This document shows, piece by piece, positions 1 to 64,000 of a DNA stretch of 64,000 nucleotides (position 1 is its first letter; each line of letters opens with the position of its first letter). The position numbers and the translations under genes are program-made. The notes below the pieces were generated by a model that saw only the letters and a program-made list of their open reading frames with translations, searched no databases and was not told the DNA's origin. Source of the DNA: Tetmemena sp. SeJ-2015 (taxonomy: Eukaryota; Ciliophora; Spirotrichea; Sporadotrichida; Oxytrichidae); contig JAJKFJ010021974.1 of the NCBI GenBank assembly GCA_027382625.1, positions 1-64,000 on the forward strand. The letters run 5' to 3'.

Positions 1-321
1 CTACAAATATTGAGTATCAAAGTCTTCATCAAAATTCATTGCTATGTTGCTTTGTTAGTTCTAATTGATATTACCAGAAAGATATTTACCACTCACTTGA
101 TCTGTACTGGCATAGTTATTATATTTTTGCTAATTCTAATCTCCGTTCTAAAGTTGCTTCAAAGTGCTTGAGGAATTATCTTCGTATTCATTATAGCCAT
201 TTCTATCAATGTTTTCTTATGTGAAGTGCTTCGTTTCATTATCATTAAGATTTGTTGGGTCTTCTTGTTCAAATTCAAGTTAATTATCGCATTCTTGATG
301 AATGAAATCACTATTTTCCAT
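1..321 (-). CDS. Q/N/D-rich protein, 3' end outside window
   Basis: On the minus strand an ATG at 321 opens a frame that runs to the window edge with no TGA. TAA and TAG occur many times inside it as Gln. The product begins MENSDFIHQECDN and is rich in Asn, Gln, Asp and Glu, with no domain I recognise. The frame is also open upstream of the chosen ATG, so the true start could lie further right. The composition fits the low-complexity proteins common in ciliates. Function unknown. Confidence 0.6.
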
Positions 322-479
322 TAAATTTGTATTAATTTCCAAATCTCTTCTTAATCTAATAAATTAAATGCATTAAAGCCCATTGTGAATAGAATTATGT
401 CATTAAAAATTCAGCCTCTTAACGAGATTATTGTTTGAAGGTAGCTTATAATTTTCAAATGGTTCTTCTTATTATAGAT
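322..479. other. AT-rich intergenic DNA
   Basis: No convincing frame. It separates the leftward gene from the dispersed repeat that follows. Confidence 0.4.
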
Positions 480-870
480 GAAAATTAAATTAAAATCGGT
501 GATTGTTTCAAATAATAAATAGAGAGTTGCAACTTCTGGGCAGTTGAAATCGTAGATTCACTCCCTGATTTGCCTCTTGTTCGATAGCTCATTAAAAATT
601 AATATGATTTAATTTTAATAATCGCTTCAGGAACGAGATATGTTCCTAACATTCAAGTTCTTCCTCCATTTAATTATTATCAGAACTTATGAGCTCTGTA
701 TTGAGCGCTCCCATACAAAAATTGTAAGGATAGAAAGTTCTTAGAATTGCATGCTGAATCGGATGGTCTAATAATTATTGAAATTGGACACACTTTAACA
801 GTCCCGATTTTATTCCATTTTAATTTAATATCTAATTTATTTCTCATTTTAATAAAAACCCAGCTATATT
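480..870 (+). repeat. Dispersed repeat, copy A
   Basis: About 390 bp similar to 50072-50480 in the same orientation. Shared blocks include a stretch near 500 (tttcaaataataaat), one near 570 (gttcgatagct.at.aaaaa) and the best-conserved core near 695-795, with an 8-bp palindrome GAGCGCTC and GTAAGGATA.AAAGTTCTT. The copies differ by many substitutions and small indels. No long frame is visible. A germline-limited repeat or old non-autonomous element is likely. No terminal inverted repeats or target duplication were found by eye. Confidence 0.7.
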
Positions 871-1241
871 AATCAGTATTAATATACAAATGCGATAAAA
901 TTTGAATTAAACGAATTTATCCAGGAGCACATCTCCTATTAAAAAGTTATTCAATAGTTTGGTCTCAGGGATAAAAATAAAATTTTTTTCCAGAAAAAAA
1001 AATTATTGATTTATCTGATGAATAAATTGCAACTTATCTTCTTAAATACTCCAAACATCGATAATGATTATATTTTTGGGTATAAATATATATAGAGGAC
1101 CTTTATAATTTAAAAACTATCTCTTGAAGGTGAGTGTGATTAATTAATATATTAGACGAGGCTCATTATACTTATGAGCGTAGACTTTTCATATCGACCA
1201 TATAGCCTTAATATATTAAATTTGCGAGGATCCTGCTTCTA
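871..1241. other. AT-rich non-coding DNA
   Basis: Between the repeat and the HMG-box gene. I see no coding pattern; it probably includes the upstream region of that gene. Confidence 0.4.
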
Positions 1242-4200
1242 ATGGAAAACTCAAATCAATTACTAGAATCTCAAGAAAGTAGAGCAACTTAACAAAACCA
1301 TAAAATTCCTGAGCACTCCAAATTCATACTACAAAATTTTTTTTATCACAAACTAGATTTAAATTCTCGTTTAGAGCGTTGCCCCTGATGAGCTCTGAAA
1401 AGCAAGTTGAGAATTGTGAGGTAGAGGAGCATTAAAGCGCAAAGCAGGTGAACGAGGATGCGAACCATATTATTCAAAACAGAAGTAAATTTCAACTTTT
1501 CCATTTAAAAAATAGGACTCCTTGCAGAGCGTATCTTTGCACAAGGCAACCCCTTTGCAGCAGCCTCTTCTAACAGGAAGATTAGTGCATACAATCAATA
1601 AAATTAAACTGCTAACTTAATTATGAAGCAATCACAAAGAGAGCGTATCAGGGAGCGTGAGCTAGCAATCTAATATATAGTAAGATTAATTGTAATCAGA
1701 TTCAGAGCAATTATTCACCAAGAGAAAAGTAAGTAAAGTGTTATCGTAAAAAGTTATCATGCTCCTCGACATAACTAACATCCTATCAGAGTTAATTTAT
1801 TTTTATTAAGTATTTGAATCCCTGTAACTTAGGACAACGAAAGTAGATCTGAGGACATGAACGATGGTGAATCCATAGCCAGCAAGCACTCAGTAAGCAT
1901 GGGCAGCGATGGGGAAGACGAATCTCCATTTATCGATTATATGCAAATAAGCAAAGAGGCAAAAGACATCAGGAAGTGCAGGCCAATCTAATTTTCAACA
2001 AAAAATTATAATGCATTTATATCAATTAGCTTTATTCAACTCTTAATTTTCTGACTTTGTTGCCTCAGCATAGGCCAAAATGGCTCAAACAAAAGAAGTT
2101 CAAGGAGAAAAGCCCGAGTTTTCTTAGCCGATAGCAAAGCATCCTAAGGACTCGCCTTTTGTGGACTTCAAGAGACTGATAGGACACCCTTCCTCGGGGA
2201 CTGAGAGGAAGTCTTCCTCGTCCATAGAAGACGTTCGCTCAGAAACTCCAATTTCTTCCGCTGCTATTTTTATGGATTAATATATAAATAAAAAAGCTGG
2301 AAGGGGCAGTAATGTCCAGGTTACAAAGCCTGAAAGCGGAGATGTTGGTAATTCATCTAACTCCGCCTAAACTAGGGCTGAGATTTAGCGGATAATTTTA
2401 ATATAAGGAATTAGTTTTATTGATGGATAGTTTCATTTGAGATAGGCTTTGAGCATACTATAGCTCTTTTGTTAATAAATTTAAGCTCTATTTTAATTTG
2501 CAGAGCTTTATTCTGTTCTATATTTGACATAATTATAAGGCTAAATTTTTTGTACCCTATTTTTAAGATTAAAAGTGCTTATAAGAATATTTTTTTTTGT
2601 CAAATAATGATAAAGAAATCTGACCATTCTTTAATAAACATTTCTTGTTTGCTAATTCAAAATTTTTATATAATTAGATAAAATAAGTTTTGCAAACCTG
2701 GAGCCTGTTATATAAATACATTATAGCTATTAGATTTGAGCTATATTCTAAATACTGCAGTAAACGACTCCAATAGAGATTTTGCCAGCAGTCTCTAAAA
2801 TCCTACTAACCAGTCATAGGACCATTTAATTACATATTAAGGACAACGCATAGGTAGAAGAGGGTGCGGATTAAAAACACGAATAAGCGGTGCCAGAATA
2901 AAATGAGTAGCTTCCAATCAAAACTGACGAAGACAAAATTCAAAGGATAATGTCAGATGAATTTGACAAATTTATTCAAATTAAGAAATCATTAAATATT
3001 GCTTCAATATAATAATCTTGAATTATCTTTTCAAAAAAGCATAAGAGAAAATGATAAATATCTATAGCTCTTTATTGTGAATAAAACTTAGCTTTATTTG
3101 CGAAAAAAGACATATTTAGAAAAGCAAAAAATATTTTCCCCTATTAGTTTTAACCTATTTATATTTAAAATTTAGAGAGTAAAACTAATTGGCGTCCTAC
3201 CAAAAGGCCCTTAATTTATTTTCCCTAAGCGTCCTCTGTCTCCATACATATTCTTTAGTCAGGAGAAGAGAAAAGAGCTGAAAAGGGAACATCCAGATTG
3301 GAATTCCCATTAAATCATGAAATAGGTGAGCATACTTTGGTAAAAAATGTCAGCTGATTAAAAACGTGATTTTCAAGAATAATCTAAAGTGGACAGAGAC
3401 AGGTAAACTCAAAATTAAAAAGTCAATTTTTAATTAAACACCAAATGAGTTTTCGAGAAAGAAAGAGTGGAATATGTCACGAAGAAGGAGGTCGATGGGA
3501 TAGATGTGAATCTACCCTCAGTTCTTGAAACTGTGAAGCAGAGGTCAAAGTTAGTAAAAGAACAATAGGAAAAGAAGCAAAAATATGAGGAGTATATGGC
3601 TGCTTTAGTCCCAGCCAAGAGGAAAAGAAGAGGAGATATAAATGCAATGTATTATTATACTTCATGACTTTTTTAAGACAGAATAATCTTTCTAAGTTAG
3701 AAGAGGAGCTCTATAGTGATGGAGAGGAGGAAGAAGAAAATAACAATGATACAATGAGACTTGAAGCCTAGACACAGCAATCCAAGATTCCACAAGCTAG
3801 CAACATTCATGACATCCTGCCAATTATAGACTCTCAGAGGTAAGCGAATTTACAACAAAACTAGCATTAATCTGCCGACGATAATAAGTCCCCGAAAACT
3901 TAGAAAATGGAATTTCACTAGAATTCTTAAATTCAAAATTTGCCAAGCATAAGATAGATTCCAACCAGGAATGTTAGAATAGAAGAGGAGATAAAGATTA
4001 ATAAGTAAATGAGTAGTGGAGGAGAGAAATCTCCTCACAATCAGAGAACTATGTAACTTTAGAAGACTGAGATACAGATTGAAAGAGAGAGGCTGGTTGA
4101 AAGGATAACTTCAGACATTAGTATTCACAAATAAAGTGAGTAGTCAACTGGAAGATTTTAGAGCAGAACTGGGAGCAGTATCACACAAATAACAACTATT

Positions 4201-6496: not shown

Positions 6497-8341
6497 ATGG
6501 AGGATTCGTAGGACCTGAGTCTTGAGCACGAAGTAGCACCAAAATCTTCAAATCAGTAATACGCTAAACTCTCAGATGATTTTGAAGAGACTGAGAACTA
6601 AAACCAAGCAGATTTTTTATCTTTATAATTTGCATTCTTATTCTTACAGATATCACTTACTCTGATTAATTATTAAAAGCAATTCCTTTTTAATGTTGTA
6701 GAGTATTTATGAGTTGATTAAGCAGCAGCAGGGATTGAGTTTAAGAATCAGAGTGAGATAAATAACTTCTTAAATGACTAACTGGCTGAAAACTTTCGGC
6801 TGAGTTCGACTTCCTAGAGACCCAAAGAAAAATTAGACAACCCCTACACTCAAAGGAACAGCAGCCAGAGCAATTCAAAAAAGAAGCAAAGATTGAATGC
6901 TAATAACATCGTAGTCAGTATGAACTCGCAATCAAGTTATAAATTTATAGATGGAGATTCGAATTAAATTTAAGTGATGGAGAGGAAGAAAATTAAAACC
7001 AAATCAATGGAATTGGAAATCAAGATATCAAACAAGACTTAAATAAGAGAAACTAAAGCAAGGAGAGAAGTGAATCTATTCCCAAAAACGCATTGGAGAG
7101 CCCTCCAAACAAGAACAAGAATATCAAAAATTCAAACAACATCTTATACAATCTAAAAAATATTTGAATATCAATTATCTTTGGTAAGGCAATCATTTAT
7201 GGTGATGAAAGGATCTATAATTTTTACGTAAAGGCTCGAAGTGGGCAAAGAGATTCAGTGAAATCAGGCGACAAGCAAAGTAGATTTGATTAATTAATTA
7301 TTAGATTAGGAGGGAAGTAAGTTTCTATCTAAGAGGAGAAGGAGGCTTAGAGATCGAAAGGAGAGAAAAAAGAAAGAGAGTTCGAAAATAAATGCTTGAG
7401 ACTTATAAAAATAAGAGAGTGGGAGCAGTTGTATGATCTAGCCAATGACCATATAGAGGAAACTTCTTATAATTCTTTAATGATATAATTCTTTATGAAA
7501 GCTAAGGTCTGTCTTTCAAAGGATTTTTCTACCTGGGTGTGAGCTTTTACAAATTGGAGGAATATGATAACGCTATCAGAGCTTTTTAAAAGGCTGAGGA
7601 GTCTAATTCTGACGATCCTCAGTTGCAGTACAACTTAGGGCTAACTTACTTTAAAGTAGAATAGTATAATTAAGCAGTTGATCACTTAAAAAAGTGCACA
7701 AAGCTGGATGTGCACCATGTTCATGCTAAATCAGTGTAAATAGTTCTTGATAAATAAATTAGTATGCTTACAACAATCTAGCATACATGTTCAACATGCA
7801 TCAATTCTATTCATCATAGTTTAATTAAGTTTACTTGTTTTCTACTCTGAAACCATATAGGTGTGTGGATAAGCAAAGATGCACAACCCAAAGACTCACA
7901 CCTGCCACCGTCACTTTTCGTTTGCTCTCTTCAAGAAGGGTGAGTATGCTAAGGCAATCAAGAAAATAAAGAAAGGAGTTGAAAAGCAGCCTAAAGAGCC
8001 AGAGAACTGGATTATATGGGGACTAATTTTGAGAACTGTGGGTAACTACATAAGTGCAAGGCATAAATTTAGAAAGGCGCTCAAAATTGATAAAAACAAT
8101 GAAACTGCATAGGAAGAGTTGAAGATGGTAGAAAGAATCATTTAATTACAAGCATTAAATCTTATTTTTTATCATAGAGCTTGATAAGTAAATTCCTCTT
8201 GAATCTGTACCTAGCCTAAGAAGAAACCCTGCTAACTCTAATATTTAGGACAAGAAGAAAGGAATAAGTAAAGACAGTGACTAATAATCAGAGGGAGTGT
8301 TTGCAAGGACTTGCCAAAATAATAGTTGCTTTATTTTTTGA
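6497..8341 (+). CDS. TPR-repeat protein, interrupted by IESs
   Basis: ATG at 6497 (MEDSQDLSLEHEVAPKSS). The N-terminal third is low-complexity, Ser/Asn/Lys-rich. The second half has tetratricopeptide repeats: FYLGVSFYKLEEYDNAIRAF near 7530, LQYNLGLTYFKVEQYNQAV near 7625, AYNNLAYMFNMHQF near 7765, then FALFKKGEYAKAIKKIKKGV near 7920 and a last helix pair ending near 8115. TPRs form helical scaffolds for protein binding. The tail ends at TGA 8339-8341 after CQNNSCFIF. IESs at 6958-6983 and 7728-7768 are firm; at least one more is needed near 7780-7870. The partner and the exact family cannot be named. Confidence 0.75.
6958..6983 (+). other. IES (pointer GATGGAGA)
   Basis: GATGGAGA at 6950-6957 and 6976-6983. 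Removal of 26 bp gives SYKFIDGEEENQNQING across a frameshift. Confidence 0.85.
7728..7768 (+). other. IES inside a TPR (pointer ATGCT)
   Basis: ATGCT at 7723-7727 and 7764-7768. Removal of 41 bp gives KLDVHHVHAYNNLAYMFN, restoring a normal TPR boundary. Confidence 0.85.
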
Positions 8342-13849: not shown

Positions 13850-15340
13850 TTATTAAATTCTAAACTGTAATCGAATTGGAGGCAGTGGTGGATGAAGTCT
13901 AATGCTAATGGGCTTAAGCTTTTTTATTGAAGGCTCATAAACTGATAATCATAAAATTAAAGCATTTGAATCACCAGTTCTGATCTACTGATAAATTTCC
14001 CCCTTTGAGTTGCCGTAAAACGGAAAACCTCCAGTCAGCATCTCATATATACTGACACCCAAGGACCAAATATCAGCTTTGAAGTCATACGGCTGACCAA
14101 TTATTACCTCTGGAGCCATGTAAATTGGTGTTCCGTATGACTGATTTAGCATTTCGTGGGGCTTAAGAATTCTTGAAAATCCGAAATCGCACAGCTTTAT
14201 GTCGCAGCTTTCTATGAAATATAAAAGGGTAATTAATTTCTTCGCTGAGGATTTATGAATTGGAAAGTTAAAACGGCGATGATAAAGTTGCGTTAGATTT
14301 GGAGTTAGTATTTGCTTATTGGGAAGTAATTTCTTGAATATTAATTTAATTGTAAATAAAGATAATAATCTTAGTTACTAGTGGAAGAATTTAGCATAAT
14401 GTTTTATGGTTTGACATCTCTGTGTATGATTCTTTTTTCTTCGTGAAGGTAATCTCTAAAATAATTCAGAGATTATTATAAAACAGTTTATATAAGTTTA
14501 GGCAAGTGCTTTGGTTAGCTAAAGAGTGAATTGTCTCACCATTTCTAAGGGAAGGCATCCATTTTGTTTAATTATAAGTTAAAATTAAACTGGAATTGGA
14601 TTTTTCCAAAAACATATTTACTTATCATTAATTGAATGTGTAATTTTCTATAAAAATAAACATCCATTATTATCTTTTGGACAAAATTAAATAAGGTTTA
14701 AGTTTATTAAAATTATAATATTTCAGAATGAAAATTCCCTTAACATTTACTCCATCTCATAGTGGATAATTTATTTCACATTTTAGAGTAATAATTTCAT
14801 ATTAAATCTATATCAAATAGATATTTAATTATCTTTAAAATTCCTGATAATAATTGTTTTAAATCGCCCTTGTTGCAATATTCTAGGACTATATTGACTA
14901 TTAAATAAGACAAAATTATATTGTAGTAATCTTTAGTCCTTAATTTTTGAACGAGACGGATTATGTTGGGGTGGTTTGCCTTCCCTAGAATCATAACTTC
15001 GTTCAAAATATTATCTAGGTGGCTGAAAGACCCTACTTCTCGCTTCAACTATTTCACAGCAAATCTACTACCTGCAGTCTCAATCATTTATACACAAAAA
15101 TAATTACTAACACAAAATAAACTCACTTTCTAAAATGAATAGATAGTTTGAGTGAATGCAGTAAACTTTTGAGAATTTTCCAAAGCCGATCATATTCTTA
15201 GTGAGCTGAATCTGGTCAGAAAGCACGCGTTAAATTCGCAGAGGGATATCTTATTCATAATCATTCAATTTGCTTAATATTTATTATCTATATCTTAAGT
15301 TTGTTCTAGGGTGAGTGAAGAGTGGGAGACCAGCATCGTT
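13850..15340 (-). CDS. ULK/Atg1-like serine/threonine kinase
   Basis: All core kinase motifs are present after removing introns and IESs. Gly loop GFGKFSKVYC near 15165; VAIK-like lysine in FAVKQLKREV near 15050; NEVMILGKANHPNIIRLVQK; YNIVLEYCNKGDL near 14880; catalytic loop IIHRDVKPQNIML near 14425; CDFGFSRIL near 14185; YGTPIYMAPEVI near 14125; ADIWSLGVSIYEMLTGGFPF near 14050; a C-lobe helix LSPLALDFIHHCLQFD near 13890. The HRDxKPQN and DFGFxR forms and the CNKGDL hinge are typical of ULK/Atg1 and Fused-type kinases, which phosphorylate Ser/Thr in the cytosol. Introns: 15072-15126 and 14212-14378. IESs: 14897-14923 and 13949-13994; 14500-14820 also holds removed DNA. Start and stop not fixed. 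Confidence 0.85.
13949..13994 (-). other. IES in kinase gene (pointer TTATCAGT)
   Basis: The pointer (ACTGATAA on the plus strand) is at 13941-13948 and 13987-13994. Removal of 46 bp gives SKGEIYQFMSLQQKSLSPLA, linking the activation-segment half to the C-lobe. Confidence 0.85.
14212..14378 (-). other. GT-AG intron in kinase gene
   Basis: The donor follows IMLNSST and the acceptor precedes KSCDIKLCDFGFSR. Splicing restores the distance between the catalytic loop and the DFG motif. Confidence 0.75.
14897..14923 (-). other. IES in kinase hinge (pointer CAATATA)
   Basis: TATATTG on the plus strand at 14890-14896 and 14917-14923. The 27 bp are in frame and add nine residues inside the conserved hinge. 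Removal gives DYYNIVLEYCNKGDL, the normal kinase spacing. Confidence 0.85.
15072..15126 (-). other. GT-AG intron in kinase gene
   Basis: Starts GTGAGT and ends CTGCAG. It joins IHSNYLFILES to SRFAVKQLKREV in frame. Confidence 0.75.
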
Positions 15341-16056
15341 TTTTAAGTTATTATATATTTTGAGAGTCAATAATTAATTTATAGTGGAAAAGTAAGATTA
15401 TTATCTAATCAACCGGGGAGCACTCCCTTTCATTATCTTCCTTAGCGCGATTTAAGACTATGAATCAGATTTTAAATCGTAAAACCAGTCTAGCAATATA
15501 GTAAATTACTTTCTTCTATTTATTATCCCACAAAATTGGATCATCGGATAAAAATTTTAAGGTTTCTGGAGGCTAGGTGATTTTAATTAATTTTTTTTTT
15601 TAAGGAATTTTTACCTATAATCATTCTTCACTTTAATTTTTAATAAGGTTCAATGTTTTTTGCAACTTTGATTGGCTTGAATTAAGCTCAATGAGCAATT
15701 TAAATATGCTATATTAAATGAGTTAATTCTTCATGTTTAATATAAAAGGTCTACGCATATTCTTGTGCTCATGCTGCAGCTAGTTTATGTCACTCTGAAT
15801 TAAAAATAATAAATGAAAATATCATTAATTTTGCTAGCAAGATAAGTGTGCCTGTTGTAATTATGCTCGAAAGACTAGATAATCTTGTTAAAATCTTCAC
15901 TTTGATTTTCCGGATTTTAGTCATTTTAAAATTCCTTAATCTTTGATTCAAGAGTTCTCAGATTCTTCCTTATATTCTTAGCTTTAAAAATATATTTAAA
16001 TAATATTTTAAGCTTCTATGATAAATTTAAGGATTTTGCAAATGAGAGCTCTGGCC
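15341..16056. other. AT-rich intergenic DNA
   Basis: About 700 bp without a convincing frame on either strand, including a poly-T run near 15590. Confidence 0.45.
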
Positions 16057-19000
16057 TCAAATAACTTTCTACATCTAAGTAGGAGTTTGATAGTGTGAGG
16101 GATTGTTTCCTTTTCCTTCATCTCTCTAGAAGTCATTTCTGCTATATTTGTGACGTTTTGGGTCCTCCATAGATGGGAAGGCATGAGACTTGGGGCTTAA
16201 GGAATCATTTCTCAAAACTTTAGAGTTTGAAAAGTAGGGTATCTTTTTCGATAATGAAGCTGGAGAGCCCTAAATTTTCTTAGTTTTTGGAGATTCATTC
16301 CTACCTAATGCGATTGTCGAAGATAGGCCTTTTTAAGCCATCTCAAAATATTTTTAAACCTAATTAAATTCCATTCTATACTACTCTTCAATTGCCTCAA
16401 AAGCCTTATTTAGAAGTAGTTCAAACATCTAATGCTTGAGTGTTCTTATCGACTTCTCTGTTATTTCGTGTAGTTCAGGGGGAGGGATAATGTCCTTCTG
16501 GTGCATCTTCTTCTTCAAAATGGATTGCAAATAGTTTACTTCTATCTCTGTGTAAATGTCTAGATTCTTATGTATCTCAGACATGTTTAAAACGCAACTA
16601 GGAGAAATTTTAAGTTTTCAGTGCTGGCTTTGTTATAGAGCAAATCTTAGTAGAGTCTTGATCTAGTCCAATCAATTGATTAATGATAAGCTTCTTGCTT
16701 TTTGGTTGCTGAGTCTATGCTTCTGGTCTTTTCTCGCTTTTATTGACACCCTTCAGTTTGTTATAATTGTCCAGATTATACTCAGATTGAAATCTTCTCT
16801 ATGAACCTATATCGTTAATCATATTTGACACCCAGTCCTAAGAATGAATAGTGGAGCAACTCTTTCTGCAAACATGCTTTGGTCTTGAGAGCCTCCAAAC
16901 GCTTAACCTTTACTTGTGTTTTCTTAATTAGCCAGGGGACATATTTGGTAGTATCTACTTTATCTAACCTTTCTCCTTCATCTTCTTAAGAGCCATCTAA
17001 AGAATGAAGAACATGCTCTATTGCCTTTGAACTCTTCAATTTGCTATCTTATTAGAGATCAAATTATAATTTCAAAAAGATTTATCCCTTCCTGCAGTGA
17101 GACTCCTTCTTCTTTTTTGTTATTAAGCTTGTTGAAACTTCAAGCTTCCGTATTTGATTTAATTTTAGCTAGGCTCTTCATCTATTTAAGTATCTAGCTT
17201 AGACCTTTTCATGTTATTTAGTTCTTGCTTCTTCAAATTTATTGCATTTAAATACTTACAACTATTTAGCTTTAATTTATGAGTCTGACTTTTTGTGAAT
17301 ATTTTATGAGTGGATTGTCACTTATTATAGGAATGTTTGATTCCTGCAGCATCTTATCATCGATCTATTAATTTACTTCACATTTCTTGAAACTCCTTTG
17401 CATTATTTTTTTTCATTTTCAGAAGAATAATAAATAATTTTAAGTTAATGCAGCTTCTTTTTGTATAGAACAGACTTGTTTTTATTTCTCCAATGAATCT
17501 CATCGTTGTTAATTTAACTGACGTTGTTGTTTGACCTAGACCTAGATCGCTCTTCTTCTTGCTCTAGAGTTGATGAAAGCTTCGAGAATCCTCGCTTTTA
17601 ACTGATAGTACTCGTGTTTTATTTGTGTATAGTTTTCCTGTTCATTAAGCTACTTGCGAATTCTTAGTACTTTGAAGATATTTGATTTAAATATATTGAT
17701 ATTGCATTTGAAGAGTTCAGGTCATTGCTAGTAGTCTTCTTTTATTATATATGCTTTCTTGATAAAATATTAGAACTGCCCTTCCCTTAAGCAACATAAT
17801 ATTCTGTGTTATTCTTCTAATCTCTGAATTGATCAGCTCTTGTATAGCTTCTATTCAACAAATATCAAACTTCTCTTTATAAATGAAGTTACGATTTGAA
17901 TTGGCAGAGTCTTGACTGGAGATTAAATAGTTGTTTCTATTATTTGCTTATATCTTCTATTATGCTTTCATCCCAGGGTTTATAGTTTGGGAAGACTAAT
18001 TAAATTATTAGCCTTACTTGTCATTTGGGAAATATTCTTAGTCCTGTATGAAATAGGTTTAAAGTTGCTACTGATTTCCCTTCACGCTCTAAGCTGTTCA
18101 GCTTTACTTTTGGGAATAACGTTTGACTTAGGATAGTATTAGAGTTTCAAGGGTGAGGGAAGATTTTAAATTACTTGAGTTTCATGGTTGCTACTATTCT
18201 GCTACTGATGTGGTCTCTAATTTCCTTAAGTTTTAGAATTAGGATAAATAACAATATGCAATCTATAAATACTACTCCTATTAATATAAGGAGTATTATC
18301 CTGCTAAGATATTCTATTTAATTTGAATCGATTGCTATTTAATTTAGAGCCGCCTTGGCTTTGAAGGAAATTAGCGATGTCAGGACTTAGATTCGACTAG
18401 TCTTGGTATTTAAAAGACAGTTATGAACAAAGTTAATTGAAAATTTGTGAGGAGATTTCAAATTTAGACTTTGGTTGAGACCCATACTAGATAGATTCTT
18501 GACATGCCTTTTCTCATTTGAATTATTGGTGATTAGCTTTCCGTCAAAAAGTATGCTCTGAGATATTAACCTCTGTCCCATTAGATCATAAAGTAAAAAA
18601 TTAGGAAAAATTAAGTATTTATCATCATGATCAATATGGTTGAAGTAATCCATATTTAAACTCTGTCTCATTTTCTTCATCTATATCTTAATTAACGTTT
18701 TAAAAAATAGATGGTAAAATCTAAGACCTGGAGGCTAACTTTAGGGGCTGGTTTAGCTATTACTTGCCATTATTATATTTCAACTAGTTAAGACTATTAT
18801 CTTGCTGATAATCTTGCTCATTTAGGATAAAGAGGCCTCCTTAATTGAAATTCCCAGATAATTTTAACTTATTCTGCATGTTATTGTGCCATGTTGCTTT
18901 ATTTTTGGGTCCTGAGTTATAAAACAGGTGTGACTTCGTATATTGAAAGAAATAAAAGATAAGTAGAGCACTTCTAAGTTGGCTCCTTACGAATAAGACT

Positions 19001-20070: not shown

Positions 20071-20094
20071 TTGATTGAGCCTCAAGTCTACCCA

Positions 20095-43954: not shown

Positions 43955-45970
43955 ATGCTTTCAGTCAACAAGCTTTCCAAGGTTTTCAGAAACAACCAAG
44001 CTCTCTCCACCCTCAGTAAGTTTCCAAACTCCTCTTAGATGGAAGAACCATCGGAGCATATGCTCTAGTGATCTAAAGTGAAAAAGCATAGTATTAAACT
44101 TACCTATAGACAGAGCCGCTTTCTCCTCATCAGCTGCAGGTGTAACCCACTCGACCCAAGCTCATTTGGACCCAAGTTGGACGAGTTCAAGGAACCTCGC
44201 TTCCTCGAGCAAGTCAAGCTTTTCTTCGATAACGCTGCCTCCAAGACTGAGGTTCCCTAGGAGTACCTCGAGCTCATCAAGGCTTGCAACACTGTTATCA
44301 GATTCAACATTCCTCTCAAGAGAGACAACGGCAAGGTTGAGACTGTCACATGCTACAGGTAAATCTTAAATGCCCATTCAATGGTTATTAATTGATTATA
44401 ATTGAGTGAATTCCAGCTTATGAATAAGATTGGAGTTTGATTGTTGTTCAGTTAATAAATATGTATGATGTAGAGCTCAGCACAGTCATCACAGACTGCC
44501 CGTCAAGGGAGGTACCAGATACTCTCCAGACATCGATCTCCAGGTAAGCTACCCCTTCACTTCCCCACATTTGGTATCTGGAGTAATCATAGTTATTTTA
44601 TGATATAAATGTATGAATCCTCGTAGGATTCGTGCAAGATTGGTAGTTAAGGTTATTAAGGAGTGATTGAAGAAGTGAATATCGTGGATTCTCTGTTTTA
44701 TTTTATTTATCCATCACCACTCAATCGCCTATTATTAACCAAACACTATTCAATTAATGCACACACTCCACTCAAATGGATTCTATATTCTACTGAACTC
44801 AACTTAACCTCACTATAGGAGACTGAAGCCCTCGCCTCACTCATGACCTTCAAGTTGGCCGTCGCTGATGTGCCCTTCGGTGGTGCTAAGGGAGGTATCA
44901 AGATTGATCCCAGAAAGCTCTCCAAGGCTGAGCTTGAGCGCGTCACTCGCCGATACACAATGGAGCTCATCAAGAAGGGCTTCATCGGACCCGCCGTCGA
45001 TTGCCTCGGCCCCGATATGGGAACCAACGAGCAGGTTATGACCTGGATCAAGGACACCTACGTGAGCGTGAAAGGTGAGCAAGACATCAACGCTGAGGGT
45101 TGCTGCACTGGAAAGTACATCTCCCAAGGAGGTATCGCCGGTAGATCTGAGTCCACTGGTCTTGGAGTCTACTACGGTATTAGAGAACTAATGAACAACC
45201 ACCCTAGCTTCTACAACAAGGTTGGACTCACTCAGGGCCTTGCAGGCAAGACCTTCGTGATGCAGGGATTCGGTAACGTTGGATACTGGGCAAGCAAGTT
45301 CTTCGTGAAGGAAAATGCCAAGATCACCACCATCATTGAGTACAACTCAGCCATCCACAACCCCGAAGGATTCGACCCCGACCACGCCAAGCAGTACTTC
45401 CAAGAGAAGGGAACCTTCGAGGGCTACTCAAAGGCAAAGGAGATTGAGACCAAGAACCCCCTCTCCTTCATGGAGAAGAAGGCTGACTTCCTCGTTCCCG
45501 CTGCTGTTGAGAAGTCCATCCACAAGGGCAACGCCTCAAAGCTACAAGTTAAGGCTGTTATTGAGGGAGCCAACGGCCCCACTACCTTCGCCGCTGAGGA
45601 GGAGCTCACCAAGCGTGGCATTGTTGTCTGCCCCGACCTTCTCATGAACGGAGGTGGAGTTACCTGCTCCTACTTCGAGTGGTTGAAGAACATCGACCAC
45701 GTCTCCCCAGGCAAACTCAGCAAGAAGTACGAGGAGAAATCCCAGAAGAAGCTTCTCGAGATGATGGGCTTCAAGGGCAACGACGAATCTATCAAGGGTG
45801 CTGAGGAGATTGATATCGTCTACTCCGGACTTGAGGAGATCATGACCACCGCTTGCAAGGAGAACTGGGAGTTCGCACAGAAGAAGAACGTGACCTTCAG
45901 AGAAGCCTGCCTGATCAACGCCATCAACAAGGTGTACCAGTGCTACAGAGAGTGCGGAATCACCATCTGA
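43955..45970 (+). CDS. NAD(P)-dependent glutamate dehydrogenase, mitochondrial
   Basis: Oxidatively deaminates glutamate to 2-oxoglutarate and ammonium. ATG 43955 gives MLSVNKLSKVFRNNQALSTL, a basic Ser-rich presequence suited to mitochondrial import. Motifs: FGPKLDEFKEPRFLEQVKLF, HRLPVKGGTRYSPDIDLQ, the substrate-binding VADVPFGGAKGGIKIDP (catalytic Lys in the GGAKGG), GPAVDCLGPDMGTNEQVM, the Rossmann glycines in VMQGFGNVG near 45265, and VIEGANGPTT and LLMNGGGVTCSYFEWL. It ends ECGITI and TGA 45968-45970. Introns 44016-44109, 44359-44473 and 44544-44818. The exon at 44110-44165 does not link smoothly: the presequence frame and the FGPKLDEF frame differ by one base step, so a small IES or sequence error lies there. 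The gene is visibly GC-richer than its neighbours, with C-ending codons, as in highly expressed ciliate genes, and its 1.15-kb last exon has no IES. Confidence 0.95.
44016..44109 (+). other. GDH intron 1
   Basis: GTAAGT donor after STL; AG acceptor (CTATAG) before AACAGAGCC or a nearby AG. The acceptor choice is tied to the unresolved frame step just downstream. Confidence 0.6.
44359..44473 (+). other. GDH intron 2
   Basis: GTAAAT donor after TVTCYR; AG acceptor at 44472-44473. It joins to AQHSHHRLPVKGG in frame. Confidence 0.85.
44544..44818 (+). other. GDH intron 3
   Basis: GTAAGC donor after SPDIDLQ; CTATAG acceptor. It joins to ETEALASLMTFKLAVADVPF in frame. At 275 bp it is longer than the others and may itself contain an IES. 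Confidence 0.85.
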
Positions 45971-46351
45971 GCAGAGAAGATCGCAATAAATAATCTCTTA
46001 AATTGACTAAGGCGCAGATTATGCTGGACTACTATCCTTACTCCCTACTATAGCTTAAGTCAGTGCTTATACTCTGAATGCATAATTCTTAGAAGCATGC
46101 CTATTTATTTAAAAGTGTATCAAACATTTATCTCTAAACACTTTCTCATTATCTACACTTCCAGTTCATAAACATTACTCCTATGTTGTGTGTGAATAAA
46201 AAGATCAATAATTTTACATACAAGCACCACCATTTATTTGTAGATATATTTATATCTGGCTTTAGTGAGCCATTTTTGCGATAATTCAATATTTTATTTG
46301 TCGTAGTGGATTAATTTTAAGGATCATACTCGATTTCTCTGTTGGATGATA
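45971..46351. other. Intergenic, AT-rich
   Basis: Between convergent genes; 3' regions of GDH and of the membrane protein. No coding pattern. Confidence 0.4.
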
Positions 46352-47338
46352 TCAATTGCTCACTACTATGATTCCAAAAAGAATTATGAGGGGAATGGCT
46401 AGTTGGTTTATTAGTTGATTAGCTGCTTGATATATGATTACTGTGATTTCTTGTGGCTCTATATCGTAGTTTACAATTCCTAGGTAGAAGTAGTTGCTTA
46501 CACATATATGCATAATAAATGAAAGAGATAAGAATGCTGCGTTATGAGAGTATACTTCCATTGTCCTGTACATAAAGCTTTTGCGCATTAAATAATTGCC
46601 CTTAAGCACAAAATTAAATATAAAAGCAATAAAAAAGCAGCTGTAAAATTACAATGCTCACCCTTATTATAAAATTCAAATCATATGCATATTTTAGAGA
46701 ATGCTTGCTTATTTATTTTAACGATAACCCAATCAAATCATAAATTAAAAAAGGCTTCCATTATTCTAAAAGATTAAATTAGCATTGAATAACTTGCAAC
46801 TGAGTTTGGATCATAATACATACCCACATAACTCCTAGTACCGTTGAGCAAATACTCACACCCAGTTTAAGGTTACATCTTAACTTTTAAAGTATACTCG
46901 TAATTAATTCTAAATTACTCAAATAATTTGACTCTTGTCTTGACTCACGAGTGTTGTAAGGACCAAAAAATTGAATGTATTAGCAGGCTGAAGAGTAGAA
47001 CTTGGTATAATTCATACACTAGCTTGGCGCTTTAAGCATTGTATAAGTTAAAAATTAGAATGTCATAAATTGATGAAATAAGTTGTGTTGGGGCAGGTAT
47101 CGTTGACAAAGTCGTAACACTTTTGGTTTTGAGTGCAGAAGTAGAAGCCCTGCTACATGCAAGACCAGCATTGCCCTGTGTAGGTTTCATTAACTGCGGC
47201 TTAGGTTTGAGTTGGAAGCGTCATTAACACAATCAAAGTCAACAGAAGGATTGCAGTTGTGCGCCCATTCAGTAGTCTGCTACTTCCACTAGTCTGACTG
47301 GAATAATTGCTGCTTATAAATTTGGTTTTCAACGCCAT
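46352..47338 (-). CDS. Cys-rich membrane protein
   Basis: ATG at 47336-47338 (MALKTKFISSNYSSQTSGSS), then a signal or anchor helix TTAILLLTLIVLMTLPTQTQ, then an extracellular Cys-rich part: YTGQCWSCMQQGFYFCTQNQ, KCYDFVNDTCPNTTYF, and further down CMNYTKFYSSACQYIQFFG and TGCEYLLNGTRSYVGMYYD, with N-x-[ST] sites. The C-terminal segment (46352-46609) has hydrophobic helices: AAFLSLSFIMHICVSNYFYL and LAIPLIILFGIIVVSN, ending at TGA 46352-46354. This suits a small ciliate surface or secretory-pathway protein. Gaps between the three parts are IESs or introns not exactly placed. No family named. Confidence 0.65.
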
Positions 47339-47449
47339 TGAAACAAAAATTATTTCTAATTATTGAATTCTATTAATTTCAAGTCAATTTAATAAAAAGA
47401 GAATAACAACATCATCAGATTATATAATTAAAACTTTATTATAAGAATC

Positions 47450-48590
47450 ATGGAAGGAAGCAACGGAGATAGATATTCATCATAAAGCAGTAGTAGTGAG
47501 GATGGAGGTGGAACTGACATCTTGGCAATGGTGCAGAAGAAAAAAGTAGATTAATTACCTTCGTGTTAACCCCCTTAAATTCTAGGTGAGTCTCACTCCC
47601 TTCCTCCTCTTCGTAATTTCTAAGGAAGCTTTGAGGGAGATATCTTTAAGATCAGAGCACTTTTAATCATCCCATTGAGTTTGTATTTACTCTTTTCTGT
47701 AGGGCATATAGAAGTGAATGACGCACGTTTGAGTGCCTAGAATTATGAATAGAACGAAAGCTTGCATTAAGGACTGACCTAAGAGGAAATAAATGAGCGC
47801 TTGAAGTAGCTAGACGAGAGATTTTAATATTTGAGGCAGTTCAATGGAAATGGAGAAAACATCAAAGCTAAAATGTAGTTACTGAATTAGCAGCCTAATT
47901 AAACCTCAGAATGTCTAGACGCCAATTTGGAAGTAAGTACCTCTTGGACATATCAATCATTTTATAGAGGAATCTGAAGTAACTTATCTCTGAGGCTGAA
48001 AGTTGGGAACAATAACAGAGGAAGAATGGAACTCATCAAGACTTCTATTTGTCTCAGTTCTTCTAAAACACTCCCTTCAACTAGAGATCGAATAATTGAT
48101 AGATGTTTTTAATTGAGATTGGTGGAGGAAAACCGCAATTTCAACAACCCCACTCTGTTTGAGAAAATAATTGTGGACTACAGTTTAGATGAAATTGGCT
48201 CCAATTTCGAAAAGAGTGTATACGATCCACATTCCATTTATTACTGAAATTTGAATAGATTAAACTATCTTATAAAGTTAAGTGCAAGTTAATTTTAATT
48301 AAGCAATAGAAAGAAGATTTCTTTGAGGAGATTGCTAAGAGATAAAATGAGATGATGCTTAAATAGCAAGAAAAGATGATGAGGAAGGGGAAAGTGCAGG
48401 AGTAACAAAGAGAAAAGTTACTAGAGAATAGAGCCCAAGAATCGCAGAGATGATGAATACTGATGTCAAGAAAGTAGAGGAGACTCTCCTTTAAAATAAG
48501 GCAAAGAAGAAAAATCTGGGTGGGGGTAGATTTGATTCTGTTATTAACGGTGGAGTTCCAATCATCAATCGTCCTCCAGGGGGTTTCTGA
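47450..48590 (+). CDS. SAP30BP/HCNGP-family protein
   Basis: ATG at 47450 (MEGSNGDRYSSQSSSSEDGG). The mid part reads DARLSAQNYEQNESLHQGL and LKQLDERFQYLRQFNGNGE. The family signature is at 48120-48245: NFNNPTLFEKIIVDYSLDEI then GSNFEKSVYDP, equivalent to R-N-P-S-x-Y-E-K-L-I-x-x-x-x-I-D-E-x-G-[ST]-N-x-x-x-x-x-[FY]-D-P. After a break comes KEDFFEEIAKRQNEMMLKQQ and a tail GGGRFDSVINGGVPIINRPP with TGA 48588-48590. Human SAP30BP is a nuclear protein linked to splicing and transcriptional repression. Introns 47585-47700 (approximate) and 47932-47968 (approximate); IES 48089-48119 is firm; removed DNA also near 48240-48305 and near 48450. Confidence 0.8.
48089..48119 (+). other. IES (pointer GAGAT)
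   Basis: GAGAT at 48084-48088 and 48115-48119. Removal of 31 bp gives TPFNQRLVEENRNFNNPTL and avoids a TGA. Confidence 0.85.
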
Positions 48591-49430
48591 GAGTACTCTC
48601 TACTTGAAATATAATTAATTTTCGCAATCTTTAAACCCTTAAAAATTGTAGTTTAAAGCTAAATTTTAAAGGCAAGTAGTTTTAAAAATAATCTGCTAGC
48701 TATTTCCCTTTTTATGATATTGTTCACTTTTTTGGGGTAAATACAAGTTTCCTGCGTAAATTTATCGCTGCCTCGATTAGAAATAATAATAATTAGGAAA
48801 CATGCTTGAATAATAAGGTTCTGCATAATCATGAAGTGAGTTCTGCATGATATTTTAAATTTAAATTAATAATAATTCCTCGAACTTATATAAATCAACT
48901 ACAAGCATTTAAAAATTGGTGTTGCTTTAATTTTCTTAATTTTTTACAAGATGCTAAACTCCTTTACAGGGTCACTCTGTTCTGAAGAAACTTCAAGGAA
49001 TTTCAGAATCAAGCTGTCCCGCTTCACGCATTATTTAATAAATATTTTGAAATAAAAATTACATGCACTTGTGGAATCTAACAGACTTAAAAATATGACA
49101 TATGCAGCTCTGCTCATCTTATAAAATAAATATTTTATTTATCTTCGACTTAGTGATATTGCTCTAATTCCTATGGAGACTTTGCTAATTTTTTCAGTGA
49201 CACATGATATTTAATAATGAAATTGATTATTTTAAGTTTAAGAGTGTGATAGCATTGTAGCAGATACAGAGAGAAGAATACTCAATCAAAATAAGATAAT
49301 TTATACCCTCCCAGATCACAATCTTTAAGATCTTAAAATTTTACTTCACCAAATTTGCAATTTTATTATCGATATCGTGAATTTTCTAAACTTACTTAGC
49401 TGTCCGAAAGCTAAACAAGTATATTAGGGG
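48591..49430. other. AT-rich spacer
   Basis: No convincing frame over about 840 bp, apart from weak open stretches near 49240-49330 that could precede the next segment. Confidence 0.4.
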
Positions 49431-49439
49431 GAAATAGCG

Positions 49440-49800
49440 AGGATAAATAAACAGAGCTTTTAAATTCCGTAATAGCCCCTATCAACTATTCACAATATTT
49501 AGAAGACTTAGAAGAGCAAGAAGAGAAATTACAAAAGGAAAAAATTAACTTCCTCCAATCAAAACACACTTAGCCACATCAAAGCACAGACTATAAACAT
49601 ATACCAAAAGAATAACTTTACTCCAATTAGTCTTTAAAAAGACTTTCAAGTTTGCCAACTAGAGCTCTTGAGAATATCCCAGTAATTATAATCAAACCGA
49701 AAATATGGGTTCTAAAAAAAATTCAATTAGCGAGCTTGCTCAAGGCTATTTCTAAATTATTGAATCATCTATTAAAATTAAATTTTAATAGCAAAGTTTA
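49440..49800 (+). CDS. Coding segment, charged, unknown
   Basis: A plus-strand frame reads NYSQYLEDLEEQEEKLQKEK, PHQSTDYKHIPKEQLYSNQ and LKRLSSLPTRALEN. A second frame follows: EYPSNYNQTENMGSKKNSI then SELAQGYFQIIESS. The two look like consecutive coding parts separated by an IES near 49680. Start and stop unknown; no domain. Confidence 0.5.
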
Positions 49801-50071
49801 TTCGATAGGGTGATTTTTAAAATTTAAATTTCTCCTTCATCTAGCCAAAGATAGCTTATTAAATTTCGCTTTAATGTAATGTTTATGGAGCTTGAGGATT
49901 CTAATCAAACAAATGGTGAAGTGAGCAATGGTAAATTCTACACTTTGAATTTCTTTCATCTGTTTGAGAACCTTGGAGTCAGCTTATACAAAAATATTTA
50001 TACGTGACTGATGCAATAAATGGATACTTAGCTATAATAAATTTTGTGACTCATTTCTTTACATTATAGTA
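49801..50071. other. AT-rich DNA
   Basis: No convincing gene; it leads into the second copy of the dispersed repeat. Confidence 0.4.
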
Positions 50072-50480
50072 TAAAATTTAATTAAAATCGATGATTGATT
50101 CAAATAATAAATGAGGAGCCGCAACATGGTGACTGTTAAAATGGCTCAAACACCACGTGATCTGCAGCTTGTTCGATAGCTAATCAAAAATTAATATGAG
50201 TTTGTTCTTTAATCATCTTCATAGAGCTGCTCAGTACCAAGATATGATGCGCGCACTGATCCCAAACTAGAATATCACTACTTTATAATATTGTGTAGCT
50301 TATAACTCTTAACTGAGCGCTCCCACACAAAAGTTGTAAGGATATAAAGTTCTTGGAATTTGATGCTGAATAGAATGGTCTAATAATTATTCAAATTGAG
50401 ACACTTCAACTGCCACTCATTTGCTCCATTTTAATTTAATATATAAATTAATTTCATTTCCATTAAATTCTCAGCTATAT
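50072..50480 (+). repeat. Dispersed repeat, copy B
   Basis: Diverged second copy of the element at 480-870, same orientation, 49.6 kb away. Best block at about 50318-50400 (GAGCGCTCCCA, GTAAGGATA.AAAGTTCTT, ATGGTCTAATAATTATT). It has a few more bases than copy A in the middle. Confidence 0.7.
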
Positions 50481-50749
50481 TATATGAGCAGCACTTGTCC
50501 TATTCATGATCTATAGCTTTCTCATTTATTTTTTTAAATAATTAATATAACTCAAGTTTTAACCAGATTCACTTTCTTCAAAAATATCAGATAAATATAC
50601 ATAAAACTGTGCTGTATCTTAATTTACATAGATAACAGCACGATTTAGTTGCTCGCATTTTTATTTTCGATTACTGGGCGTTTTGTGGGCAGCTACTTTT
50701 TTGTGTTTCACTTGTAATAATTTTAATTGAATATGTATGTTTCAGATGT

Positions 50750-60469: not shown

Positions 60470-62849
60470 AGAGTTAGAAGGTAGCAGGAGCCAGACTTGG
60501 TTGTGATTGCATTTCAATCAATCCAGATCTCTCACTGTCTAATCTAACAGATCTTTCAGGGTCATTTACAAAGCTGTGGTGAGACCTTCTGTGAGTTTCA
60601 CTTCCTGCAACTCCACCTGCTTTTTGATTAAGATAGTCAATCAGCATTAATCAAAAATATATCAGCTGAGAATGCTTGTCTCCTCCCTGAGCCTTCTTTG
60701 CAAATATTTCCTCAAGCTTCTCTCCCTCGAGCATCAGCAAATCGTTAAACAGCTTCAATCAAAGGAAAATAAGTATCTTGTATAGCTTCTGTTTCTTGTG
60801 AGAGCCTTTTTCGTAGTTGTAGATAAGAAGAGGCTTGATAATCATTAAGTCAAGTCTTCTCATGATTTGACCGCAACCTTGTTTCTTGTTAGTTTAAGCA
60901 GTTGCAGCCTGTGGTTCATTGTTAACGTCTTCCATGTTAGGGTGCTCTACGACTTCGTGATGACTATCATCATGCCCATGAGCACCTTGAACTATTCCCT
61001 TTGCCTCTTTCTCTGCCTAAACCTTGGCTGCCATCTCCTTTCCGAAAAGACAGTGCTATACAGTAGCTACAGTCGATCCCATAAACACTGTTGTCACTAC
61101 CACAAGAGCTAGAGATGTGGTCACGATCACTGATCTGTTAGCGACATTTAATTAAGAAAACAATCAAGTAATCCTTTAAAACTAAGACAGAGTTGTTGAT
61201 CCTAAGCACAAGACCGAAGGCCACTGCTCCTCTGATCATTCCAGCGTATGAAATGAAGATGAGATCCTTAAATCTGATTCCAGACTTGTAGCCAAACAGC
61301 CTAAAGAGGATTAAACGATGATAAGGTAGTTCATATATGACAATTAAAAATGAATTAAGTCTTACTCAAGGAACTTGATAATTCCCATAGTGCCCATGAA
61401 TCTACCGAGGATAACGATGATCAATTCTGCGATGAAGAGTTGCCATGACCACTCGAAGCTCACGTAAGCAAAGAAAGTCAAACCCAAGTATCCAAACACA
61501 AATGCCTCAACTGCATATCCGAGCATGTTAAAAGCAATTGATGTCACTTGCTTCGATTGAGGTGAGAGATTGTACCAAGAATACTTAGCCATGAAAATTG
61601 AGCAAGCCAACAGAGAGATAATACCTGAAAAGTGGAACAGCTCAGCGATACAGTAAGAAAGATAGCCAAAGCAGAAGATAAGGGTGCACTCAACAACTGG
61701 CTTGACTGTGAGGAATCTCATGTTCTTAGTTGTAATTGAGGAGGCTATTCCAGTCACAATTCCGGTCAAAATACTGAAGAAACTCAAGTTAACGAACGAT
61801 CCAACGATTTTGAAAGGGGTAGTTCCAGTGAACTCTGAATTCGGGCCTGCATATTCCATAACAGTGTTGAACAAAATAATGCACACAGCTCTATAAACAT
61901 TTTGCGCATTAATTTCATTAAAGCATCATTAGTGATACCCTCTCCGAATACAAGAGAGAAGAGCTTAGGTTGCTCTTCGTACTTGATGATTGAAATAGCT
62001 GCGACGACGTCTGTACAGCAAAGAAGAGAGCACATAAGAAGAATCTCCATGACTGAAAGAGTGAACTGCTCATACTCTCTATAATTTAGTCAAGTAAAAT
62101 GATGAATAATTAATGACAAGAGGAGCAGAACTTTAATAAGATTTTGGCCTCATAACGATATTTAAAATTTGATTAGATCTCTAAAGAGAGAAAAGAAATA
62201 TTAGCCAATAACTAGTCTGTCTGATTTAATTTGAGTGCCTTGATTTAAATATGACGCTCTATTTCTAGTTAGCAAGTGTGCAAACAATCCTTAAACTTGC
62301 ACTAATCCTGCATTACTAGTATACTGAAAATACAATTCTTCTTTCTTTCATTAAATTCTGCTTTTGTCTCGTTGACTTACCCAGTATGGCCGTTATACTT
62401 CCATAGAATATCGAACTTGCACACGATGTAGGTCATTACTGAGAAAGCAGTGAAAGTGATCAAAGTTCCGAAAAGCCCGAAGAGTAAATTTTTCATTTAA
62501 AAATAATATATCATCAATTTATGTGATGATGATAAATTTGTTTAAAGAGTAGAATGTTCGTGAAATTCTTGAAGAACTCTTTCCTCTTCATGTTGTAGCC
62601 AGATGCAAAGACTATAGGCGGCAAGCAGAAGTAGAAGAAGAAGTTGTCGTCGAAGGTCATCATTTTATTGATCTCTGAGTGGCCTGTCTGGAAAGCCAGC
62701 CAAGAGAATAGCATTCCGAATATAATGACTAGACCTGCTTCATGGCCTATCTTGCAATGGAACTTTTCAAGTATTGAGCCAATGAACATGTAGAAGAGAA
62801 GCACCATCATGATGATGAATGCTCCCATACTGAACAGATTTGCTGACAT
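60470..62849 (-). CDS. Na+/H+ exchanger (CPA1/NHE family)
   Basis: Membrane antiporter exchanging Na+ for H+. ATG 62849 (MSANLFSMGAFIIMMVLLFY). Family motifs in order: GLVIIFGMLFSWLAFQTGH, FYFCLPPIVFASGYNMKRKE, FFKNFTNILLFGLFGTLITF, YEQFTLSVMEILLMCSLLC, CTDVVAAISII, VFGEGITNDAVCIILFNTV (the GEGxxND core), a stretch of helices to IIVILGRFMGTMGIIKFLE, and YAGMIRGAVAFGLVLR. The cytosolic tail is acidic and His/Asp-containing, then KKQKLFNDLLMLEGEKLEE and SQLIDYLNQKAGG. Five IESs (62487-62551, 61890-61924, 61147-61189, 60756-60788, 60646-60666) and two GT-AG introns (62079-62380, 61301-61365) must be removed. The stop is not fixed; coding is sure to about 60475 (SLAPATF). Intracellular NHE8-like and NHE6-like types are both possible. 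Confidence 0.93.
60646..60666 (-). other. 21-bp IES in NHE tail (pointer GCTGAT)
   Basis: ATCAGC on plus at 60640-60645 and 60661-60666. The 21 bp contain an in-frame TGA; removal gives GDKHSQLIDYLNQKAGG. Confidence 0.88.
60756..60788 (-). other. IES in NHE tail (pointer AAGCT)
   Basis: AGCTT on plus at 60751-60755 and 60784-60788. The 33 bp contain an in-frame TGA; removal gives SHKKQKLFNDLLMLEGEK. Confidence 0.85.
61147..61189 (-). other. IES in NHE gene (pointer TGTC)
   Basis: GACA on plus at 61143-61146 and 61186-61189. Removal of 43 bp gives LVLRINNSVANRSVIVTTSL. Confidence 0.88.
61301..61365 (-). other. GT-AG intron in NHE gene
   Basis: GTAAGA to TTTAG, 65 bp. Splicing joins MGIIKFLE to LFGYKSGIRFKDLIF. 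Confidence 0.85.
61890..61924 (-). other. IES in NHE core motif (pointer GCT)
   Basis: AGC on plus at 61887-61889 and 61922-61924. Removal of 35 bp gives GEGITNDAVCIILFNTV. The only shared repeat is 3 bp, but the restored motif is diagnostic. Confidence 0.9.
62079..62380 (-). other. GT-AG intron in NHE gene
   Basis: GTAAGT to TATAG, 302 bp. Splicing joins LWKYNGHTG to EYEQFTLSVMEILL. Unusually long for this window; it may contain an IES. Confidence 0.75.
62487..62551 (-). other. IES in NHE gene (pointer TACTCTT)
   Basis: AAGAGTA on plus at 62480-62486 and 62545-62551. Removal of 65 bp gives FFKNFTNILLFGLFGTLITF, the family sequence. There are no GT/AG ends at the required joint, so this is not an intron. 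Confidence 0.92.
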
Positions 62850-63578
62850 TTATCTTAAAATAGTAAGATGAATTAAATTTCGAGCAAAAACTAAGAGTGC
62901 CGAGTTGAGAAAGTCAAGTAATGAAGTTTGGAGGAGTATTAGAATGGTTCCCGAGCTATCGAGTCTAAAGAAAGCTTAAGAGGGTCAAGAATGAGTGAAG
63001 GGGCTAAATTATTTCTTAACTTACTGCTGCTAGTATCGATTACTAAACTCTAGAGAATATAAAAATTTTCATTTTCTAATTAAACAAGGTTAACTACTAA
63101 TTTAATTAATTATAAGAAGTTAACATTTAGTTGTTTAAACTTTACTATTTCAATTTACACACTCTTGCTAAAAGACACATTTTATCTCCTTCTACCTGAG
63201 AACGCATTATATCTTTACTCGCTCAATTATTTGAGAAATTGATGAACTAAGGCAGCCTGTTGGTTTCCACTTCTCTAATAGATACCTGTTTAAAATTCAC
63301 AAAGATTCAGTATTTTTAAATGTGAATATAACTTCATCCGTTTTACATGATATTATACGTTCTGCCCGATTTTTCAAAAAATTTTGAATTTGCTTAAGCT
63401 CTTGGCATCTGTGTTAAAACTTGGTACTGTAAGCGCTTCTTGTCGGCTGAGTTTACTAGAAAAATTTGATGAAAAAAGGTAATTTTACTGATTTATTAAA
63501 TCCCACCAATTATACAATCAAATAATGTATAGTGTTTGATTAGATAGTTTTATATAGAGATAGTGATATGATAATCAA

Positions 63579-63612
<34 letters not shown>

Positions 63613-63615
63613 TAG

Positions 63616-63652
<37 letters not shown>

Positions 63653-64000
63653 TAAGATGTCTGAATTGCTAATTTTTAATATCTCTGGTATAGATGGTTG
63701 TTTAATATATTGATTAGTCTTAAAATTAATCTACTAATGCCTTATTAGATTACTCTATTAAAATCTTGATTAACCAATGAGGTGGCTTAATTAAATTTAA
63801 AGCAAATAATTTTGCCACTAATCTTTAAATATTGTTACCCGAGTTTTCTTTTAAAGCTAGAAAGTATTTTTCTCGAGCAGCTTGTTATCTATAATTTTAT
63901 TTAGATTATTATTTCTATAACCATCTTATAAAACACTTATTTGATTATAAATGGTTTGAAGCTACCTCTCTAAAAGTCAGTAAAAAGACTAAAATAGTGG
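62850..64000. other. AT-rich non-coding DNA with microsatellite
   Basis: Upstream of the exchanger gene. No convincing frame on either strand. Confidence 0.5.
63580..63650. repeat. (GATA)n microsatellite
   Basis: About 17 tandem GATA units, interrupted once near 63612 by TTAG. Common in non-coding germline DNA. Confidence 0.95.

Follow-up and report, generated by a model that had tools for sequence, protein, structure and literature searches.

Short repeat-flanked inserts split genes in a probable germline window of a spirotrich ciliate and occupy different sites in paralogs

How are genes stored when their coding frames are broken by short AT-rich inserts, and at what level would these inserts be removed? 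The question is raised by a 64,000-nucleotide stretch of ciliate DNA (C2955:1-64000, here called the window) within a 146-Mb assembly of 5213 contigs. Five unrelated genes on its two strands carry 11 such inserts between them, each bounded by an exact short direct repeat, and deleting an insert while keeping one copy of the repeat restores the protein. The window is almost certainly micronuclear (germline) DNA of a spirotrich, most likely a hypotrich, organised as macronuclear-destined segments (MDSs), internal eliminated sequences (IESs) and pointers. Under such an organisation, protein genes would lie as MDSs separated by short AT-rich IESs, each bounded by a short direct repeat, the pointer. 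The IES would be cut out as the somatic nucleus develops, leaving one pointer copy, and ordinary GT-AG introns would stay in the DNA and be removed from RNA. Read straight through their inserts, genes of the window give wrong proteins and, if the DNA is germline, they should therefore not be annotated as they stand. This way of storing interrupted genes is already known; the genome is a new one of a known kind.

The Na+/H+ exchanger gene (60672-62849, minus strand) contains four inserts, at 62487-62551 (65 bp deleted, pointer TACTCTT), 61890-61924 (35 bp, GCT), 61147-61189 (43 bp, TGTC) and 60757-60789 (33 bp, GAAGCT), the repeats being 7, 3, 4 and 6 bp long. It also holds two GT-AG introns, at 62080-62381 and 61301-61365. 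With the four inserts and both introns taken out, the gene becomes one fully open frame of 545 amino acids. In Pfam scans, which covered blocks of the chosen strand only, the exchanger scores 56.3 bits in pieces and 156.2 bits in a single stretch when joined. The joined protein matches the solved NHE6, NHE9, NHE3 and NHE1; against NHE6 the score rises from 94.8 bits unjoined to 166.7 bits joined, and the main aligned stretch spans the first three insert sites with no gap at a junction.

Four other genes behave alike. A protein kinase gene (approximately 13960-15002, minus strand; typed fragments match Pkinase) has one insert of 27 bp at 14897-14923 (pointer CAATATA, 7 bp) and a GT-AG intron at 14212-14378. 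Removal of the insert lifts the Pkinase fragment score from 24.8 to 35.0 bits; the raw frame has no PDB match. A leucine-rich-repeat (LRR) gene recognised by Pfam (approximately 38100-40400, minus strand) has a GT-AG intron at 39838-39951 and an in-frame insert of 27 bp at 40215-40241 (pointer ACTT, 4 bp), whose removal raises the LRR_6 fragment score from 41.8 to 46.6 bits. A second, probable IES of 72 bp in the same gene (39243-39314, pointer TAC, 3 bp) had its boundary set with the pointer in view and is the weakest call of the set; it carries a near-terminal inverted repeat (ACCTATAAATAT / ATATTTATAGGT). The TPR gene (7543-8280 examined, plus strand, likewise recognised by Pfam) has three inserts, at 7723-7763 (41 bp, ATGCT), 7816-7856 (41 bp, ATAG) and 8137-8170 (34 bp, ATCAT), with repeats of 5, 4 and 5 bp. 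In the SAP30BP-like (HCNGP) gene (approximately 47449-48590, plus strand, identified by Pfam), joining across a 62-bp insert at 48236-48297 (pointer ATT, 3 bp) takes the Pfam match from 28.3 to 45.1 bits. Scrambling of these five genes was considered and rejected: MDS order is colinear in the parts examined. The original prediction had singled out the same five genes as its cleanest cases, and in each of them its inserts now have exact coordinates and a restored protein.

Taken as a set, the inserts share properties that introns of the same DNA lack. The deleted length is 27-72 bp across the 11 window inserts. Adding five inserts from paralogs of two of the genes (described below) gives 16, with a mean G+C of 0.21 as against 0.40 in their flanks. 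A GT-AG reading is possible in none of the 11, and in none of the 16, the ends varying from case to case. As the original prediction had held, true GT-AG introns occur inside the insert-bearing genes themselves: two in the exchanger, one in the kinase and one in the LRR gene. It had put the repeats at 3-10 bp; those of the window run from 3 to 7 bp, and the upper part of that range was not seen there. Because the inserts were picked by eye with the repeats in view, the p-values that follow are descriptive and not proof, and the intron controls, drawn from the same and other genes, were picked for having GT-AG. A direct repeat of 3-8 bp flanks 16 of 16 inserts, compared with 0-3 bp at 8 GT-AG introns (one-sided Mann-Whitney p 9e-5). 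When the insert sequences were shuffled with the deleted length held fixed, 10 of 16 had a repeat longer than their shuffled versions at p<0.05 (Fisher p 1.2e-11 for the set); the same test on the 8 introns gave 0 of 8 (Fisher p 0.40). A run with wider tolerance returned 4 significant inserts out of 8 (Fisher 4.2e-5), and 0.76 for 7 introns. For 11 of the 12 sites that have an empty counterpart in a paralog, p is 2e-10, the GAAGCT site having been left out and confirmed empty later.

These empty counterparts come from the same assembly. The TPR gene has a paralog on contig C3574 (L040), and the exchanger has one on C1530 (L087, L089); viral contigs yielded none for the exchanger, not even a more distant relative. 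All seven window insert sites in the two genes are contiguous in the paralogs. Conversely, the paralogs have inserts of their own at places where the window runs on uninterrupted; their pointers are TAGC and AAATTT in the TPR paralog and AGTGA, TGCATTAT and ACTT in the exchanger paralog. At each of the 12 compared sites, one copy thus carries an insert and its counterpart does not; no site is common to both, and residue counts between conserved anchors are equal at 11 of the 12. Intron positions tell another story: in the exchanger paralogs, the first intron (62080-62381) has its donor, and the second (61301-61365) its entire extent, at matching positions. A second copy of the exchanger paralog on C3574 (L090), 95.5% identical to that on C1530, is presumably its allele, and alignment places all three exchanger-paralog inserts in both copies; one of them had escaped an exact string lookup in C3574, where a substitution lies next to it. 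The empty sites are the independent and the strongest new support for the inserts, and they fix occupied and vacant IES positions exactly, with no need of somatic sequence. C3574 (108.6 kb) carries both paralogs, the TPR gene at 84.4 kb and the exchanger at 35.4-37.5 kb, with more exchanger-like matches to 41.5 kb; a segmental duplication with changed gene order is a possible origin of this arrangement.

The genetic code and the telomeres point to the kind of ciliate. Under the standard code the window has only 7 frames of at least 120 amino acids. Reading TAA and TAG as Gln gives 149 frames of at least 150 amino acids, many of them surely due to chance since TGA is the sole stop left. Its conserved genes cannot be read without TAA and TAG as Gln, and TGA is the stop codon of the glutamate dehydrogenase (GDH) gene. 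In the assembly, nine contigs have a 20-nt C4A4C4A4C4 match at base 1. This code and C4A4 telomeres are both typical of hypotrichs and related spirotrichs. One telomere-bearing contig, C298 (L005, C298:1-1520), begins with a C4A4 telomere of exactly 20 nt, yet has 21,168 bases and a 95% identical relative, C1815 (L071), with no telomere there. Between L005 and L071, two patches are hyperdivergent, with GACG and AAAT repeats at their edges. The possibility that C298 is a somatic chromosome was weighed and rejected: its length, and the insert-like patches that it keeps and that are seen in C1815, are the reason it was not used as somatic sequence.

Could the inserts instead be unusual introns without GT-AG ends, removed from RNA while the DNA is never rearranged? 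They do break coding frames as introns would, and canonical introns lie in the same genes. However, none of the 16 permits a GT-AG reading, their ends vary, the repeats of 3-8 bp at every insert exceed the 0-3 bp at introns, and the exchanger paralogs keep two intron sites while 0 of 7 insert sites are kept, so that such introns seem very improbable. Slightly less probable still is an account in which errors of assembly, decaying pseudogenes or protein loops kept in frame explain the frame breaks. A one-base break at 48438 in the SAP30BP-like gene, where the allele has an open frame, shows that such things occur, as do frame breaks in the TPR paralog, and 6 of the 16 inserts are multiples of 3. 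Against this account, inserts of 27-72 bp that are AT-rich and repeat-bounded, and present in allelic copies where these give cover, are absent at the exact paralog positions, and the joined exchanger is fully open.

A third account keeps germline DNA and changes the ciliate, to one with TA-bounded IESs of Paramecium or Euplotes type. Paramecium has short, AT-rich inserts in its genes that are precisely removed and TA-bounded, and in length and composition the present inserts resemble them. TGA as stop with TAA and TAG as Gln does not fit the Euplotes code, and the pointers here are diverse, several having no TA at all (GCT, TGTC, GAAGCT). The pointers of Euplotes vannus have a TA motif (PMC10901763). 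This account is as remote as that of errors and decay. Non-canonical introns, IESs of TA type and, as a general explanation, assembly error were all rejected.

Several observations nevertheless weigh against spirotrich germline DNA with pointer-bounded IESs. The kinase region 14460-14838, between the N- and C-lobe segments, has more interruptions, the exact ends of which could not be placed, and one junction there seemed to leave just a 1-bp repeat. Frame breaks are left in the LRR gene near 39420 and in the TPR gene near 7535. Four of the 11 window pointers (GCT, ACTT, TAC and ATT, 3-4 bp) are not significant singly, nor are 6 of the 16 when the paralogs are included, and the choice of inserts by eye stands behind all of these tests. 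At the ATAG site the contiguous TPR paralog is two residues longer than the window. Excision itself was not observed, as no somatic sequence turned up: the assembly search for somatic copies, in which the best candidates were scored in most searches, returned alleles, paralogs and repeats only, and the window's exchanger had no counterpart free of IESs among the candidates scored, which in part of the searches were the best ones only. When the whole window was scanned for AT-rich inserts that are bounded by repeats and restore a frame, there was no excess over reversed-repeat controls (91 versus 105 at k=5, 45 versus 43 at k=6, 16 versus 20 at k=7). Nor did a codon-model segmentation with permuted junctions show a pointer excess; in one example of 92 junctions, repeats of at least 6 occurred in 8.7% versus 9.9% expected. 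These null scans are put down to low power, and they warn that a repeat plus frame rescue is insufficient alone. The original prediction had relied on that pair of signs, which cannot serve as a sufficient criterion. Its count of at least ten unrelated genes on both strands is not established either, since without homology the pair is not above chance: both strands and five genes stand, from an examination of five genes together with GDH and part of a ubiquitin-like gene, and ab initio gene models were too weak for counting genes. Some frame breaks are one-base indels, such as that at 48438. Its wider reading as spirotrich micronuclear DNA holds up on the homology-anchored inserts, diverse pointers, code, telomeres, repeats with a transposon, and paralog empty sites. 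Kept out of all counts were kinase 14460-14838, the LRR break at ~39420, the TPR break at ~7535, a near-duplication at ~31568-31583, the TPR-paralog frame breaks, the first-intron acceptor of the exchanger paralog, which was not resolved, and further interruptions in L089.

What, then, do the paralogs say about the history of these inserts? With 0 of 12 IES sites shared and two introns kept, it is possible, though doubtful, that the turnover of IES sites in this germline is far more rapid than that of introns, each gene copy having its own set. Short pointer-flanked inserts may have been gained continually after duplication, or IESs may have been lost wholesale by recapture of somatic DNA, free of IESs and still bearing introns, and then gained anew. 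The contrast rests on two gene families. Paralogs make IES turnover separable from intron conservation, which bears on the origin of such inserts, and if the contrast were to hold across the genome, comparing occupied with vacant sites inside a single germline genome would show directly how spirotrich IESs originate. It is the part most worth following up: orthologs of Oxytricha and Tetmemena have 38.3% and 30.9% of pointer positions in common (PMC9797194), and 0 of 12 in paralogs as against this published 31-38% makes a genome-wide count worthwhile.

The alleles and neighbouring genes give further context. Allelic contigs cover 42589-49950 (C3775, 4.3% substitutions), 16000-21139 (C4101, 3.2%) and 31583-33322 (C3508, 2.4%), and positions 1-677 are matched at 95-96% by C1260 and C3045, probably allelic. 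The SAP30BP-like insert is the only curated insert under allelic cover. It is present in both alleles and differs by 26% between them, versus 2.7% and 7.9% in its coding flanks. At 48438 the window has one base fewer than C3775, whose frame stays open; the difference may be an assembly error or a real allele. The GDH gene (44144-45970, plus strand), with GT-AG introns at 44357-44471 and 44542-44816, serves as an internal control: the part read has no pointer-flanked insert, and allelic divergence is 5.4% and 3.8% in its introns and 2.3%, 2.9% and 0.5% in its exons. The GDH region (44001-46000) has a G+C of 0.48, far above the rest of the window; the value for the window as a whole is about 0.33. 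The part read of the ubiquitin-like gene contains an intron; at 31560-31590, a 7-nt near-duplication (~31568-31583) seems to break its frame and may be a tiny insert, a duplication or an error.

Repeats are abundant. A 1.2-kb Tc1-like element at 35875-37083 matches DDE_3 and is bordered by 32-nt inverted repeats that are 91% complementary; it lies in a stretch whose G+C of 0.42 is above the rest of the window. With 40 candidates scored out of 122, it has at least 46 matches in the assembly including itself; the nearest of the others listed is 97% identical, and the family was probably active recently. A 638-bp foldback element (42078-42715) has 175-nt arms that are 95% complementary, as well as inner arms; among 182 candidate places, 39 were scored, its own family supplied the majority of the matches, and the allelic contig C3775 starts within it. 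Other high-copy repeats lie at 471-871, 50060-50481, 63653-63949 and 28914-29021, their matches being mostly 71-79%, 81-88%, 81-88% and 95-97% identical, respectively. The first two dominated searches, with 2996 and 4168 first-look candidates. An ATAG tandem repeat of 17.8 copies occupies 63579-63649. C4A4C4 is the end of telomere-bearing elements (TBEs); the block is absent from the window, and C4A4 blocks occur internal to contigs elsewhere in the assembly (few were inspected, and these were not shown to be TBEs). To our knowledge, such a repeat and transposon content is not expected in the gene-sized somatic chromosomes of these ciliates.

How does the window compare with known systems? Like Paramecium, it has short AT-rich inserts in genes; unlike those of Paramecium, its IESs are not TA-bounded. 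Set against Oxytricha and Tetmemena, the window has a Tc1-like transposon of 1.2 kb and no TBE-end block. The likenesses to Oxytricha trifallax and Tetmemena are an MDS/IES/pointer structure, few introns per gene, germline repeats and Tc1/mariner-type transposons (PMC9797194). The assembly here is 146 Mb, whereas theirs are 496 and 237 Mb, and their pointers lie at nonscrambled and scrambled junctions alike, whereas the checked parts of five genes here are unscrambled (PMC9797194). Like Halteria grandinella and Strombidium cf. sulcatum, the window has IESs with diverse, AT-rich pointers mostly below 10 bp, and it shares C4A4 telomeres with Strombidium cf. sulcatum; its G+C of about 0.33 differs from their 42.4% and 52.0% (PMC10901763). 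The IESs here are 27-72 bp, a range from which long ones would have escaped reading, compared with medians of 104 and 180 bp in Halteria and Strombidium and 73 bp in Oxytricha (PMC10901763). The zero shared sites in two paralog pairs, a sample of two families, run counter to the report that many IESs lie at homologous sites in within-species paralogs (PMC10901763). Overall, the window fits the hypotrich pattern.

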